Origin: Erythrobacteraceae bacterium CFH 75059
GTDB lineage: Bacteria > Pseudomonadota > Alphaproteobacteria > Sphingomonadales > Sphingomonadaceae
Assembly (NCBI GenBank): GCA_004331795.1
Contig: SJSR01000001.1
Span: forward strand, 372,001 to 436,000
Length of the DNA: 64,000 nucleotides
Reading direction: 5' to 3'
Position numbers and translations under genes: made by a program. The notes below the pieces were generated by a model. It ran no database searches. It had not been told where the DNA came from and saw nothing but the letters and a program-made list of their open reading frames with translations. Within the stretch, counting starts at the first letter, position 1; every line of letters begins with the position of its first letter. Below are positions 15,468 to 20,769 of this stretch, piece after piece.

Positions 15468-15531
15468 GCCGGACTTGGCCTTCCCCGCCTGCCTGCCGCC
15501 ACGGCGGGCGGACCTGTCGCGGCCTGCGGTG

Positions 15532-16230
15532 ATGCGGCTCGTCCACCGCGAGCGTCACGCGGTGCAGCGGATCGGCTGGCTTCGCGCGGCCGTGCTTGGC
15601 GCCAATGACGGGCTGGTGTCCACCGCCAGCCTCATCGTGGGCGTGGCGGCGGCCGGCGTCGGACGGGGCGAGATCCTGATCGCCGGGCTTGCCGGCCTCG
15701 TCGCCGGAGCCATGTCGATGGCGGCGGGCGAGTATGTCTCGGTGAGCTCGCAGGCCGACGCCGAAAAGGCCGACCTCGAACGCGAGCGCGGCGAACTGGC
15801 CGCCATGCCGGAGGCGGAGCTGGAGGAACTGGCCGGCATCTATGCCGCGCGCGGGCTGGATCACGACCTTGCCATGCAGGTGGCGCAGCAGCTGACGGCG
15901 CGGGACGCGCTCGGCGCCCATGCCCGCGACGAACTCGGCATCACCGACGTGGCGAGCGCCCGGCCCGTGCAGGCGGCATTCGTGTCGGCCGCCACCTTCT
16001 CGGCCGGAGCCGCGCTGCCGGTGCTGGTGGCGGCCGCGGTGCCGGCGGCCGTCGTGCTGCCGGCGGTCGCGCTGAGCGCGCTGGTGGGCTTGGGCGCGCT
16101 CGGCGGGCTCGGCGCTGCGGCAGGCGGCGCTGCGCCCCTGAAGGCGATCCTGCGGGTCGTCTTCTGGAGCGCGGCGGCAATGGCGGTGACGGCGGGCGTG
16201 GGGCGGGTGTTCGGAGTCGCCGTGACCTGA
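15532..16230 (+). CDS. VIT family (CCC1/VIT1) membrane transporter
   Basis: A 232-aa membrane protein related to vacuolar iron transporters, which export Fe2+ or Mn2+ from the cytoplasm. Seen: RAAVLGANDGLVSTASLIVGVAAA (TM1), GLAGLVAGAMSMAAGEYVSVSSQ (TM2), then a Glu-rich cytoplasmic metal-binding helix pair (ERERGELAAMPEAELEELA, residues about 80-110). Three further hydrophobic segments follow. ATG 15532 is preferred; a TTG at 15475 would extend the frame. The gene starts shortly after gloA on the same strand. Confidence 0.88.
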   Translation: MRLVHRERHAVQRIGWLRAAVLGANDGLVSTASLIVGVAAAGVGRGEILIAGLAGLVAGAMSMAAGEYVSVSSQADAEKADLERERGELAAMPEAELEELAGIYAARGLDHDLAMQVAQQLTARDALGAHARDELGITDVASARPVQAAFVSAATFSAGAALPVLVAAAVPAAVVLPAVALSALVGLGALGGLGAAAGGAAPLKAILRVVFWSAAAMAVTAGVGRVFGVAVT

Positions 16231-16243
16231 TCCGCGGATCGGC

Positions 16244-16747
16244 TCAGGCCGGCGATGCCGTAGCCGCGACCGGCGCGGGCGCGCACCCGCCCGTCTGGCG
16301 CAGGGCCGGAAGACCCGCGGCGAACAGCTCCTTCATCTGCCGGACCGCCGCCGCCGCGTTCACCCCGACGAGGCAGCGCACATCCTGCGCGTCGCTGCGC
16401 AGCGATTGCGGCAGGTCGCCGCCCGCGTCGAGGCAGGCCATGCCCCATTCGCCGAACAGCCGCGCATCGGTGTCGACGAGGTCGACAAGCTGCAGGTCGC
16501 GGTGGCGCAGGTCGGCGCAGATCCGCTCGAACGTGGTCTCCACCATCGCCACCGGCCCCTCGAGGATCTGGACGAACACGCCGTCGACGAGCAGGAGGCT
16601 GCCGGTGATCGCGACCTTGCTGTTGGCGGCTGCCGATGACCGGGCGAGGGCGTGCAGGTCAAGAGGGGGCGCACCCGCGGCCGGAGGTGCCATCCGGCTC
16701 GTGTAGAGCAGGCGGCACAGGCGGGCGCGGACAGGATGATCGCTCAT
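16244..16747 (-). CDS. BLUF-domain blue-light photoreceptor
   Basis: A 167-aa protein that should bind FAD and sense blue light. All residues of the photocycle are present and in register with AppA: Y15 (LLYTSR), N42 (AAANSKVAITG), Q60 (FVQILEG), W101 and M103 (FGEWGM). The BLUF core covers about residues 8-105, and a 60-aa helical tail follows with no known output domain. The gene is translationally coupled (ATGA overlap, 16744-16747) to the upstream MHYT-GGDEF-EAL gene. The simplest reading is that it controls that cyclic-di-GMP enzyme by direct contact, as short BLUF proteins do with EAL partners elsewhere. That interaction is inference. Confidence 0.9.
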   Translation of the reverse strand: MSDHPVRARLCRLLYTSRMAPPAAGAPPLDLHALARSSAAANSKVAITGSLLLVDGVFVQILEGPVAMVETTFERICADLRHRDLQLVDLVDTDARLFGEWGMACLDAGGDLPQSLRSDAQDVRCLVGVNAAAAVRQMKELFAAGLPALRQTGGCAPAPVAATASPA

Positions 16748-18774
16748 GCGGCCGCTCCGACCGCCTGCCGGGCCATGGCGGCGAGGGCGCTGGAGGACAC
16801 CGGACGGCTGATCAGGAACCCTTGCGAGTTGTGGCACCCCTGCCCCGCCATGAAGGCGAGCTGCTCGTCCGTCTCGATGCCCTCGGCGGTGATCTTGAGA
16901 TCGAGGGTGACGCCCAGTTGCACGATGGCGCGCACGATCGAGGCGCTGCTGGCGTCGTCCGGCAGGCGGCGGACGAAGGAACGATCGATCTTGATCCGGC
17001 TGATGGGGTAGCGGTGCAGGTAGCTCAGCGACGAGTAGCCGGTGCCGAAGTCGTCGAGCGAGATGCGCACGCCGAGCTCCCGCAGGCGGGTGAGCGTCGC
17101 CATGACGACATCGTCATCCTCGAGCAGGGCGGTTTCGGTGATCTCCAGTTCGAGCCGGGACGGCGCAAGGCCCGCCTCCTCGAGCGCCTGTGTCACGAGG
17201 CTCGGCAGGCGCGGATCGAACAGCTGCACGGGAGAAATGTTGACCGACAGGTTGACGTGCGACGGCCACCCGGCCGCGTCGCGGCATGCCTGCTTCAGGA
17301 CGCCTGCGCCGATGCGGGTGACGAGGCCCAGATCTTCCGCAATCGGGATGAATTCGGCTGGCGACACCTCGCCGCGCTGCGCGCAGGTCCAGCGCAGCAG
17401 GGCCTCGGCGCCGGTGACAGAGCCGGTGCGCGTGTCGGTGATGGGCTGGTAGACCACATCGAACTCCTCGCGCATGCAAGCCCGGCGCAGATCCGCCTCG
17501 ATCATGCGGCGCCTGTTCAGCGCCTCGCTCATCGCCGGCTCGAACACGCAGAACCGGCCCTTGCCCTCGCTCTTCGCCGTGTAGAGCGCCACGTCGGCCT
17601 TCTGCACGAGGGCGGACGGGTCCGATCCGTGCAGGGGCGCAAGGCAGACGCCGACGCTCGCGCCGATGTCCGCGATGTGACCGTCGACAAGGAAGGGGCG
17701 CGCCATGATCTCGACGATGCGGTCGGCAAGCGCCCGAGCGGCAGCGGCATCGGCGACGTTGGGAGCGATCACGGCGAACTCGTCACCGCCGAGGCGCGCG
17801 ATCAGATCCCCGTCGCGAATCGCCTTCCTGAGCCTCTGGGCAACGCGCCGCAGCACCTTGTCGCCGACCGGATGGCCAAGCGTGTCATTGACCGCCTTGA
17901 ACCGATCAAGGTCGATCAGCAGCAGCGCGAAGGGACGGGCGAATGCACGCATCCGGCGGCACTCCTGCTCGAGCGCCTCGGTGAAGGCCCGCCGGTTGGC
18001 GACAGCCGTGAGCTCGTCGTGCATGGCGATGTGGTGCAGCCTGGCCTGCGAATGGCTGACCGCCTTGCGCTCGACCACGTAGGTGGACAGGCCCACGCCG
18101 ACGATGAGCAGCGCCACCAGCGCGATGGCCGCAGCCATGGCGGCGAAGGCGTCGCGGTCGACAAGCGCGCTCACGCCGGGAATGGGCTGCACCGTGAAGG
18201 CGGCCATGCCGGTGAAGTGCAGGACGAGGATCGCCGCCGCGAGCAGCAGGGCGGCCTGCCGCGTCGCACCCCGCCCGCCCGTGAGGCGGCCGAGCGCCGC
18301 CACGCACAAGGCGACACAGAGGATGATCGACGCCGCCACATGGCCGGGCAGCCAGGTGACGACCCCTTCCACCCGGTAGGCGAACATGCCGACGTAATGC
18401 ATCGCCGCAATGGCGAGGCCGATGATGCTGCCCCCGCCCACGACCGCGACCGCCGGCCGGCGGGAGGTGGCCAGCAGCAGGCCCGCGCCGATCCCCGCGA
18501 CCGCGATCAGCGCCGAGAAGATCGTCAGCGGACCATCGAACGTCACCGGCACGTTGGCGCGGTGACCGAGCATCGCGACGAAGTGGGTGGCCCAGGTCGC
18601 CGCGCCGGCGGTCAGGGCCGCAAGAAGACACCAGTAAAGGCGGGTCGCCCGCGGCGCGGTGACGCAGCGGTGAAACAGACGGGACGCGACGCACGCACCG
18701 GCAAGGCACATGGCGGCAGCAAGGACGACCAGCCAAACGACATGGTCCTGCGTCACGCAGGAAAGGACTCGCAT
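16744..18774 (-). CDS. Membrane MHYT-GGDEF-EAL cyclic-di-GMP enzyme
   Basis: A 676-aa protein. Residues 1-240 hold seven hydrophobic segments with three MHYT-type motifs: ATHFVAML (62-69), MHYVGM (125-130) and LHFTGM (185-190). This domain is proposed to bind copper and sense O2, CO or NO. The GGDEF motif is intact at 329-333, and RDGD at 320-323 is a candidate inhibitory I-site five residues before it. The EAL domain has EAL at 457-459 and DDFGTGYSSL, so it looks able to hydrolyse c-di-GMP. Both activities may be present. Its last bases overlap the BLUF gene, so gas and blue-light inputs may converge on one c-di-GMP switch. Confidence 0.93.
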   Translation of the reverse strand: MRVLSCVTQDHVVWLVVLAAAMCLAGACVASRLFHRCVTAPRATRLYWCLLAALTAGAATWATHFVAMLGHRANVPVTFDGPLTIFSALIAVAGIGAGLLLATSRRPAVAVVGGGSIIGLAIAAMHYVGMFAYRVEGVVTWLPGHVAASIILCVALCVAALGRLTGGRGATRQAALLLAAAILVLHFTGMAAFTVQPIPGVSALVDRDAFAAMAAAIALVALLIVGVGLSTYVVERKAVSHSQARLHHIAMHDELTAVANRRAFTEALEQECRRMRAFARPFALLLIDLDRFKAVNDTLGHPVGDKVLRRVAQRLRKAIRDGDLIARLGGDEFAVIAPNVADAAAARALADRIVEIMARPFLVDGHIADIGASVGVCLAPLHGSDPSALVQKADVALYTAKSEGKGRFCVFEPAMSEALNRRRMIEADLRRACMREEFDVVYQPITDTRTGSVTGAEALLRWTCAQRGEVSPAEFIPIAEDLGLVTRIGAGVLKQACRDAAGWPSHVNLSVNISPVQLFDPRLPSLVTQALEEAGLAPSRLELEITETALLEDDDVVMATLTRLRELGVRISLDDFGTGYSSLSYLHRYPISRIKIDRSFVRRLPDDASSASIVRAIVQLGVTLDLKITAEGIETDEQLAFMAGQGCHNSQGFLISRPVSSSALAAMARQAVGAAA

Positions 18775-18848
18775 CGCCCGGCTCCTTCACGCGGGGCAGG
18801 CAGCCCCGCAGAATGTGCGTCGATGCCAAAACATGCGTGAAAACAGTG

Positions 18849-19088
18849 TTAAATCGCGCCCGTGGATGTTGCGGATGGCGGCTGGGGCGACGTGAAGAAG
18901 CGGCGGTAATGCGCGTCCCGCTCCACCTTGGCCATCCCTTGTGTCTCCTCCACGAAGCGGTTGCGCTCCCTGCGGGTGGCGAAGACCCAGATGCAGATGC
19001 TGTCGGCGGAATGGTAGATCGCCTTCCGCTCGTCATCGACGGCGCAGAGTTCGGGCGGGATGGCGGCGGAGATGCAGAAGGCGGTCAT
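18849..19088 (-). CDS. Small protein of unknown function
   Basis: A 79-aa frame with plausible protein character: SADSICIWVFATRRERNRFVEETQGMAKVERDAHYRRFF, mixed charged and aromatic residues and three cysteines. No signal peptide or known domain. No good Shine-Dalgarno site is visible before the ATG at 19088. It lies between guaA and the MHYT-GGDEF-EAL gene, all on the same strand. It might be a small regulator, but it could also be a chance frame. Confidence 0.5.
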   Translation of the reverse strand: MTAFCISAAIPPELCAVDDERKAIYHSADSICIWVFATRRERNRFVEETQGMAKVERDAHYRRFFTSPQPPSATSTGAI

Positions 19089-19206
19089 GGCTCAGCCCCT
19101 GCGCCGGATGCGTCCTGCTTCAGGAGCCGTGAAGGCCGCGCGAACCCGCCGCTCGCGGCAGTGGTGCAGAAGGCACCGCGCAGAACACGATGCGGGAGAC
19201 CTGAAT

Positions 19207-20769
19207 TCATTCCCACTCGATCGTCCCTGGCGGCTTGCTGGTGTAGTCGTACACCACCCGGTTGATGCCGCGCACCTCGTTGACGATGCGCGTTGCGACA
19301 TTCGCCAGGAATTCGCCGGGGAAGTGGTACACGTCGGCGGTCATCCCGTCGGTGCTGGTCACGGCGCGCAGGCCGCACACGCTGTCATAGGTGCGCCCGT
19401 CGCCCATCACGCCCACGGTCTTGACCGGCAGCAGCACGGCGAAGGCCTGCCAGATGGCATCATACAGCCCGTGGCGGCGGATTTCCTCGAGATAGATGGC
19501 GTCGGCCCGGCGAAGGATGTCGCAGCGTTCCTTCGTCACCTCGCCAGGGATGCGGATGGCAAGGCCCGGGCCGGGAAACGGGTGGCGCTTCACGAAGGCG
19601 TCCGGCAGCCCCAGCTCGCGGCCGAGATCGCGCACCTCGTCCTTGAACAGTTCGCGCAGGGGCTCGACGAGCTTCATGTTCATGCGTTCGGGCAGGCCGC
19701 CGACATTGTGGTGGCTCTTGATGGTGACCGACGGCCCGCCGGTGTGGCTGACGCTCTCGATCACGTCGGGATAGAGCGTGCCTTGTGCCAGGAACTCCGC
19801 CCCGCCGATCTTTCTGGCCTCTTCCTCGAACACGTCGATGAAGGTCTTGCCGATGAACTTGCGCTTGGCTTCCGGGTCGGTCACGCCGGCGAGGCCGGTG
19901 AGGAACCGCTCTTCCGCGTTCACATGGACCAGCGGGATGTTGTAGTGACCCCGGAACAGCTCCACGACCTGCTCCGCCTCGCCGCTGCGCAGCAGCCCGT
20001 GGTCGACGAACACGCAGGTCAGCTGGTCCCCGATCGCCTCGTGGATCAGGACGGCGGCCACCGCGCTGTCGACGCCGCCCGACAGGCCGCAGATGACGCG
20101 GCCCGAACCAACCTGTGCGCGGATCTCGGCGATCTTGGTTTCGCGGAACTCGGCCATGGTCCAGTCACCAGCAAGGCCGCAGACATGGCGGGCGAAATTG
20201 GCGATCAGGCGGCCGCCATCGGGCGTGTGGACGACCTCTGGATGGAACTGCACCCCGAAGAAGCGGCGTTCCGCGTTGCAGATGACGGCGTGCGGCGCCC
20301 CTTCGCTCGACGCGACGGCGCGAAATCCCGGCGGCAGCGCGATCACCTTGTCGCCGTGGCTCATCCACACCTGATGGCGGGTGCCCGCCTCCCACAGCCC
20401 GTCGAACAAGGGGCAATCCGCGTCGATGTCGAGGAACGCGCGGCCGAACTCGCCCGTGGCGCCGCTCTGCACCGCGCCGCCGAGCTGCTGCGCCATGGCC
20501 TGCTGCCCGTAGCAGATGCCAAGGACCGGCACCCCCGCCTCGAAGAATGCCGCCGGGGCGGACGGCGCATCGTCTTCTGTCACCGATCTGGGGCCGCCGC
20601 TGAGGATGATGCCCTTGGGGCCGAGCCGCTCGAACGCCTCGGCCGCCCGCGTGTACGGCGCGATCTCCGAATACACCCCCGCCTCGCGCACGCGGCGGGC
20701 GATGAGCTGGGTCACCTGGCTGCCGAAATCGACGATGAGGATGGAGTCGGGGGTGTGTTCGGGCGTCAT
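19207..20769 (-). CDS. guaA: GMP synthase (glutamine-hydrolysing)
   Basis: Makes GMP from XMP, glutamine and ATP. A 520-aa protein with an N-terminal class I amidotransferase domain: C86 nucleophile in GICYGQ, plus the FHPEV histidine-glutamate pair. The ATP pyrophosphatase P-loop is GLSGGVDSA, and the C-terminal dimerisation domain ends in [11 protein letters not shown], the standard terminus. ATG 20769 is chosen because the GuaA family begins with this stretch ([14 protein letters not shown]). It is divergent from gyrB. Confidence 0.97.

Follow-up and report, generated by a model that had tools for sequence, protein, structure and literature searches.

A BLUF photoreceptor gene paired with an MHYT-GGDEF-EAL membrane enzyme gene in Alphaproteobacteria

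Architecture of the two-gene locus

The window, a 64,000-nucleotide stretch of contig SJSR01000001.1 (GCA_004331795.1, positions 372,001 to 436,000) from Erythrobacteraceae bacterium CFH 75059, carries two adjoining genes on its minus strand (Table 1). The first encodes a membrane enzyme with an MHYT, a GGDEF and an EAL domain, and the second a short photoreceptor of the BLUF family, the TGA of the enzyme gene and the ATG of the BLUF gene merging into ATGA. The two genes probably encode one light-regulated cyclic di-GMP (c-di-GMP) unit, a dedicated two-protein membrane enzyme in which BLUF would act on the EAL module. Because the two genes travel together through many related bacteria, they suggest a known type of enzyme placed under the control of light, in a form not found described in the literature searched.

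Table 1. Features of the locus, with positions in the window
Feature	Position	Strand	Evidence or relation to the pair
VIT1-family gene	15475-16230	opposite to the pair	downstream neighbour
Short BLUF photoreceptor gene, 167 aa	16244..16747	minus	Pfam, model and Foldseek matches
BLUF C-terminal helices 114-127 and 131-151, likely docking/output element	16295..16408	minus	AlphaFold2; role suggested by known BLUF proteins
BLUF domain, residues 10-104, putative flavin pocket Y15/N42/Q60/W101/M103	16436..16720	minus	Pfam
ATGA start/stop overlap (translational coupling)	16744..16747	minus	sequence
MHYT-GGDEF-EAL membrane protein gene, 676 aa	16744..18774	minus	Pfam, model
EAL domain, residues 427-658	16801..17496	minus	Pfam
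GGDEF domain, residues 250-406	17557..18027	minus	Pfam
7-helix membrane MHYT domain, about residues 1-235, H64/H126/H186	18070..18774	minus	Pfam, helices in model
79-aa open reading frame between guaA and the MHYT gene	18849-19088	minus	open reading frame, upstream of the enzyme gene
guaA	19207-20829	minus, as the pair	upstream neighbour

By profile, residues and fold, the window BLUF is a member of the BLUF domain family, predicted to bind flavin. Its Pfam score is 77.3 bits against a cut-off of 25, and the five pocket residues of Table 1 are invariant in all 32 rows of a BLUF alignment (20 MHYT-paired, 11 otherwise paired and one orphan). In the AlphaFold2 model, with a mean predicted local distance difference test score (pLDDT) of 90.2, the usual core is followed by the two C-terminal helices, and the best Foldseek matches include OaPAC, PixD, BlrB and BlrP1. 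The motif FE[RK]ICxDxRH is rejected as unique to the MHYT-paired clade described below, since the unpaired BLUF L077 carries it too. A second BLUF gene of the window genome (L043, G000:C1:652762-653034) has no EAL gene adjoining it and, in the BLUF tree, falls together with that of G001, the sister species.

The enzyme scores 239 bits for EAL, 164 for GGDEF and 88 for MHYT (two stretches) in Pfam, all above the curated cut-offs, with its domains in the order seen in NbdA/MucR-type proteins. The GGDEF motif occupies residues 329-333 and the EAL motif 457-459, the other catalytic positions checked are present, an RxxD I-site is formed by R320 and D323, and the second MHYT motif reads MHYV. For the GGDEF-EAL part, the closest resemblance is to PA0575 and MorA of Pseudomonas aeruginosa. 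Only a GGDEF domain model exceeds its cut-off among the 25 NCBIfam models listed, and the equivalog names listed are rejected, all falling far under theirs. The structural model of the enzyme (mean pLDDT 87.2) contains seven long N-terminal helices, the seventh extending to residue 251 into GGDEF; its predicted template modelling score (pTM) is 0.54, so the arrangement of the domains is unsure. The three MHYT histidines sit close to the C-termini of helices 2, 4 and 6, which places all of them on one face. Since GGDEF-EAL must be cytoplasmic, the histidine face should be periplasmic. A first-pass annotation of the window had named a complete short BLUF receptor with its five residues, an ATGA overlap, and a membrane protein with an MHYT domain and intact GGDEF and EAL motifs; the overlap is present as described, and both proteins are borne out by Pfam and by their residues.

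Recurrence and shared history of the pair

A survey of gene pairs in related genomes, which the first-pass annotation had proposed, finds the BLUF gene directly after the MHYT-GGDEF-EAL gene at 21 distinct loci. A 22nd pair lies on the 762-kb plasmid pCME4A9I of Croceicoccus marinus (L210; BLUF 44.7% and enzyme 61.7% identical, residues 1-662 of the latter being covered), so the pair can be plasmid-borne. The hosts belong to the Sphingomonadales, Rhizobiaceae, Aurantimonadaceae, Methylobacteriaceae and Acetobacteraceae, and those named in the records include Qipengyuania, Alteriqipengyuania, Citromicrobium, Thermaurantiacus, Croceicoccus, Plastoroseomonas, Methylobacterium, Rhizobium, Aliirhizobium and Aurantimonas. 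The pair is carried by Qipengyuania flava DSM 16421 (L052), which we take to be the type strain of its species. As judged from these loci, the pairing is a conserved two-gene module, not peculiar to the window genome.

Within 59 related genomes, the BLUF family occurs at 45 places. A GGDEF-EAL gene lies directly upstream of BLUF at 9 of the 31 loci first taken with their flanks (L001-L031, a few containing two or three BLUFs), the window included; by our estimate, from about 7 GGDEF genes in some two thousand genes, the chance of a random gene having a GGDEF neighbour is about 3 per thousand. Four of these nine have an MHYT N-terminus (the window, L038, L041 and L042), and L039 is cut by a contig end. 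MHYT matches occur at 19 places in 17 of the 59 genomes, 4 of the 19 adjoining a BLUF; two are marginal and are not recovered with our own MHYT profile. Three BLUF genes stand in a row at L007 (G055), and two at L010 (G003).

A named-genome collection of 84,980 species was scanned with four paired BLUFs, the scan being limited to two short peptide patterns; 131 matches were confirmed, and the best 80 of them were retained. Together with further searches, the scan yielded 161 distinct BLUFs: in 119 cases the gene directly upstream is not an EAL gene, 20 follow MHYT-GGDEF-EAL, 21 follow GGDEF-EAL lacking an MHYT match and one is fused. These proportions are not a census because the proteins were chosen largely by similarity. 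In the final tally, L066 is moved to the MHYT group, its MHYT part lying just upstream in another frame, and the chimera L053 is dropped, giving 21 MHYT-type pairs and 19 others.

The histories of the two proteins were compared in careful versions of two trees. In the BLUF tree, built from 41 paired or fused and 48 unpaired sequences (a random draw of 45 from the remainder and three chosen, including the orphan L046), a single clade unites L046 with the 21 MHYT-paired BLUFs (support 96/93). In the 48-row tree of GGDEF-EAL regions (21 partners, nine MHYT-GGDEF-EAL proteins of related genomes without BLUF and 18 other BLUF partners), the 21 MHYT-type partners likewise form one clade (99/95), and the nine without BLUF fall elsewhere. 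BLUF and partner distances correlate with r 0.83, reached in none of 5000 permutations, a correlation that vertical inheritance alone could also give. BLUFs paired or fused with MHYT-free GGDEF-EAL proteins lie elsewhere in the BLUF tree in 19 of 20 cases, L060 adjoining the MHYT-paired clade, and GGDEF-EAL pairing therefore originated, or was retained, in at least two lineages. Ten of the 21 MHYT-type pairs allow a BLUF start at -4 (ATGA or GTGA) and one allows it at -1; for the remaining 10, the nearest ATG or GTG lies from 8 bp inside to 19 bp past the stop. The BLUF of L046 deviates at residues 56-58, where a few paired members show variation as well.

The pair is also absent as a whole. 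G001, the only other genome of the genus examined, keeps the order OmpA, EndoIII, glyoxalase, VIT1, guaA, gyrB, with a gap of 40 bp between the VIT1 and guaA frames against 2,976 bp in the window, where the gap holds the pair and the 79-aa frame. Since both genes are absent from this intact locus, the pair, on this comparison, is gained or lost as a unit. When 12 loci are compared pairwise, 62 of the 66 combinations show no common neighbour within 5 kb (E 1e-10), the other four being two pairs of close relatives and single matches between L051 and L057 and between the window and L047 (31%); the conserved unit is thus the pair itself.

The rarity of the module was gauged with a profile of the BLUF clade (17 rows, 16 paired members and L046). 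Among 298 genomes of the family, 11 give a match of at least 143 bits, the next match scoring 119, and all 11 have MHYT-GGDEF-EAL upstream, with an in-frame stop within the MHYT part in G136. The profile itself contained seven of the 11, but not G113, G274, G060 or G083. The next 10 matches (119-101 bits, nine genomes) have GGDEF-EAL upstream or fused in every case. Only the window genome exceeds 140 bits in 385 genomes spread over the class, where the next match scores 101, and only the window genome and G169 do so in 398 genomes over the phylum; in the latter set, G1041 (126 bits, the match crossing one TGA) holds a further MHYT pair. By these profile matches, the module is uncommon yet scattered across several families.

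Proposed function, alternatives and known systems

In the proposed mechanism, the short BLUF would bind flavin and absorb blue light, docking on the GGDEF-EAL part through its two C-terminal helices. Published systems are compared here through portions of the papers cited. BLUF controls EAL in PapB-PapA and BlrP1, and since these two and BldP are listed as light-activated (PMC8846402), light would alter EAL activity most likely by raising c-di-GMP breakdown. The membrane MHYT domain would anchor the complex and receive a second input, probably a copper-bound gas by analogy with CoxC, and the GGDEF domain would make c-di-GMP in other conditions or tune the EAL domain. A fuller version of this scheme is held only tentatively: a coincidence detector, present in several alphaproteobacterial families, in which a copper-bound diatomic gas sensed by MHYT in the periplasm and blue light sensed by the separate BLUF in the cytoplasm might together switch one enzyme between making and breaking c-di-GMP.

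Functional coupling of BLUF with the MHYT-GGDEF-EAL enzyme, the central proposal of the first-pass annotation, is well supported by the adjacency of the genes, the matching clades, the lack of both genes in the sister species and the fusion seen in a related group. In this fusion (L186, G075:C3:205000-211000, same family), GGDEF-EAL-BLUF forms one 715-aa open frame with BLUF last. A dedicated light-regulated unit is also favoured by a ratio of nonsynonymous to synonymous rates (dN/dS) under 0.5 for both genes wherever a value was obtained, and by the match of the BLUF model to OaPAC, PixD, BlrB and BlrP1. Several observations weigh against such a unit. In most cases (119 of the 161 BLUFs collected), the gene directly upstream is not an EAL gene, and the orphan L046 (Alteraurantiacibacter buctensis), although within the MHYT-paired clade, has no EAL match in its 12-kb locus. 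The fusion comes from outside the MHYT clade and, belonging to the MHYT-free group, supports EAL-BLUF coupling generally rather than in that clade. The MHYT part is interrupted in 2 of the 21 partners, by a stop in L054 and a frame change in L066. The sequence of the BLUF C-terminal helices is poorly conserved between Erythrobacteraceae and Rhizobiaceae or Thermaurantiacus members. Finally, dN/dS is 0.17-0.49 for BLUF (9 of 10 comparisons, one being saturated) and 0.10-0.23 for the partner (8 comparisons), BLUF evolving faster in all 8 comparisons with both values; by this measure, BLUF is more tolerant of change than its partner.

It is rather unlikely that BLUF instead targets the cyclase (GGDEF) side or the linker helix, light mainly altering c-di-GMP synthesis and not breakdown. 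Such an action would fit three features: none of the 21 MHYT-type partners departs at the GGDEF positions D331, E332 and F333 (in one, A replaces the second G); the I-site R is retained by 16 of them and the D by 18; and the MHYT-PAS-GGDEF-EAL protein CdgB has both activities (PMC9683572). However, the BLUF-linked c-di-GMP enzymes of one review are phosphodiesterases or regulators of a phosphodiesterase (PMC8846402), and the EAL residues stay intact in MHYT-free pairs even with a degenerate GGDEF. The checked EAL catalytic positions are intact in 39 of 39 partners, namely the 21 MHYT-type ones and 18 others (the fusion plus 17 separate genes, with two cut genes set aside), while in those 18 the first glycine of GGDEF is altered in four and the glutamate in three, pointing to EAL as the constant partner of BLUF. 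Apart from the two interrupted partners, all 19 compared retain the three MHYT histidines.

That the genes are merely co-transcribed, with BLUF serving another target such as a transcription factor and sharing a regulon with the enzyme, is unlikely. The short BLUF BlsA does act on iron metabolism via Fur (PMC5955987), and both the many BLUFs without an EAL gene upstream and the partnerless L046 would agree with such a role; the coinciding clades of BLUF and partner, the differing flanking genes at most loci and the L186 fusion speak against it. A BLUF that in this lineage is mainly a redox or temperature sensor is highly improbable: BlsA integrates temperature too (PMC6712483), and light has no obvious photosynthetic use in the host, as the window genome yields no type-II reaction-centre match (phototrophy of the host is rejected on the same ground), but the photocycle residues Y, N, Q, W and M are invariant in 32 of 32 BLUFs.

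As a light-regulated EAL unit, the module is suggested to work most like PapB-PapA, with the membrane MHYT-GGDEF-EAL partner as the new feature. In PapB-PapA of Rhodopseudomonas palustris, a short BLUF regulates an EAL protein in trans, just as the window pair consists of a separate short BLUF and an EAL-containing partner; however, PapA is a solo EAL protein (PMC8846402; compared by description, not sequence), and for this reason the window pair is likened to PapB-PapA in its working without being filed as one. Fusions of the BlrP1, BldP and YcgF type also couple BLUF to EAL, and the window BLUF matches BlrP1 in sequence and fold, whereas the window has separate genes, EAL first and BLUF second. 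The BLUF of BlrP1 is N-terminal (chain residues 10-104 of 413), and in the related fusion L186 it follows EAL.

The partner itself resembles NbdA and MucR of P. aeruginosa, YkoW/DgcW of Bacillus subtilis and CdgB of Azospirillum in its MHYT-(PAS)-GGDEF-EAL architecture, DgcW being given as similar (PMC11347149). The MHYT motifs of CdgB, at 64-67, 125-128 and 187-190, occupy nearly the same positions as in the window enzyme (PMC9683572). Unlike the window enzyme, none of these proteins has a BLUF partner mentioned in the portions of text concerned, and none is in the partner tree. MucR and NbdA are linked with nitric oxide (PMC11347149), and CdgB combines both enzyme activities with MHYT-dependent membrane localization (PMC9683572). 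Small blue-light receptor genes also stand beside c-di-GMP enzymes in the PYP operons with GGDEF/EAL genes, which differ in the photoreceptor family and in which no MHYT is seen in the portion concerned (PMC12826048).

By analogy, the MHYT domain of the window enzyme may sense a gas as an added input, and blue light might be combined with O2, NO or CO, as the first-pass annotation proposed. To our knowledge, direct evidence on gas or copper for an MHYT domain exists only for CoxC. This MHYT-LytTR protein of Afipia, which shares the MHYT sensor domain, needs copper and responds to carbon monoxide through MHYT, but its output is DNA binding, with neither c-di-GMP nor light involved (PMC11347149).

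The first-pass annotation had considered the MHYT pairing not commonly described, which agrees with the literature searched, where no description of a BLUF-MHYT pairing was found by a narrow search joining both terms. A review containing both domains treats them apart in the portions concerned (PMC8846402), and the corresponding portions of PMC2654016 and PMC4844311 describe no such pair. The text on the BLUF of a deep-sea bacterium (PMC8805636) lacks the terms EAL, c-di-GMP, GGDEF, operon and adjacent. PMC12172448 describes no Q. flava BLUF in the passages mentioning BLUF, and the word MHYT is absent from its main text.

If the proposed coupling holds, light and gas would control c-di-GMP on one membrane enzyme whose light sensor is a separate subunit, and the module might be of use in optogenetics. 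In Q. flava 21-3, a LOV kinase responds to blue light and activates a cyclase, so promoting zero-valent sulfur formation (PMC12172448, PMC10267684); should the pair be present in this strain as well, a second blue-light arm would exist there, predicted to lower c-di-GMP. As the species already serves for work on blue light and c-di-GMP and its strain DSM 16421 holds the pair, the module is testable.

Flanking sequence and other loci

Neither NCBIfam nor any of the loci examined, apart from the window's own, yields a match to the 79-aa frame that precedes the enzyme gene, and this frame is not counted as a third operon member. In a scan of 16100-19300, no sigma-70-like promoter was found, and the single terminator-like site equals the number in shuffled sequence. 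The guanine-plus-cytosine content of the pair (70.1%) is close to that of the window (69.5%), and recent transfer is thus rejected as far as base composition can tell. The window genome assembly (2.26 Mb, 17 contigs) contains seven GGDEF matches, and five PilZ matches in four open frames.

The locus L053 (CAJWWA010000057.1), with HisKA_7TM-PAS-GGDEF-EAL beside a BLUF nearly that of Q. flava, was considered a natural exchange of the sensor domain and is rejected as a likely assembly chimera. From the GGDEF motif on, 13 of the 14 segments (100 bp each) match Q. flava at 96-100% identity and one at 85%, the metagenome-assembled genome is labelled Halieaceae, and the joint lies inside the GGDEF motif; the locus is excluded from the trees and from the count of 21.

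Two further loci show other arrangements. L045 (G004:C3:568000-582000) holds two tandem BLUF genes having an N-terminal extension with a CxxC motif; the two share a very long branch in the BLUF tree. At L190 (G118:C1:3950000-3956000), a GGDEF-EAL/BLUF pair is followed on the same strand by a separate MHYT gene of at least 357 aa.

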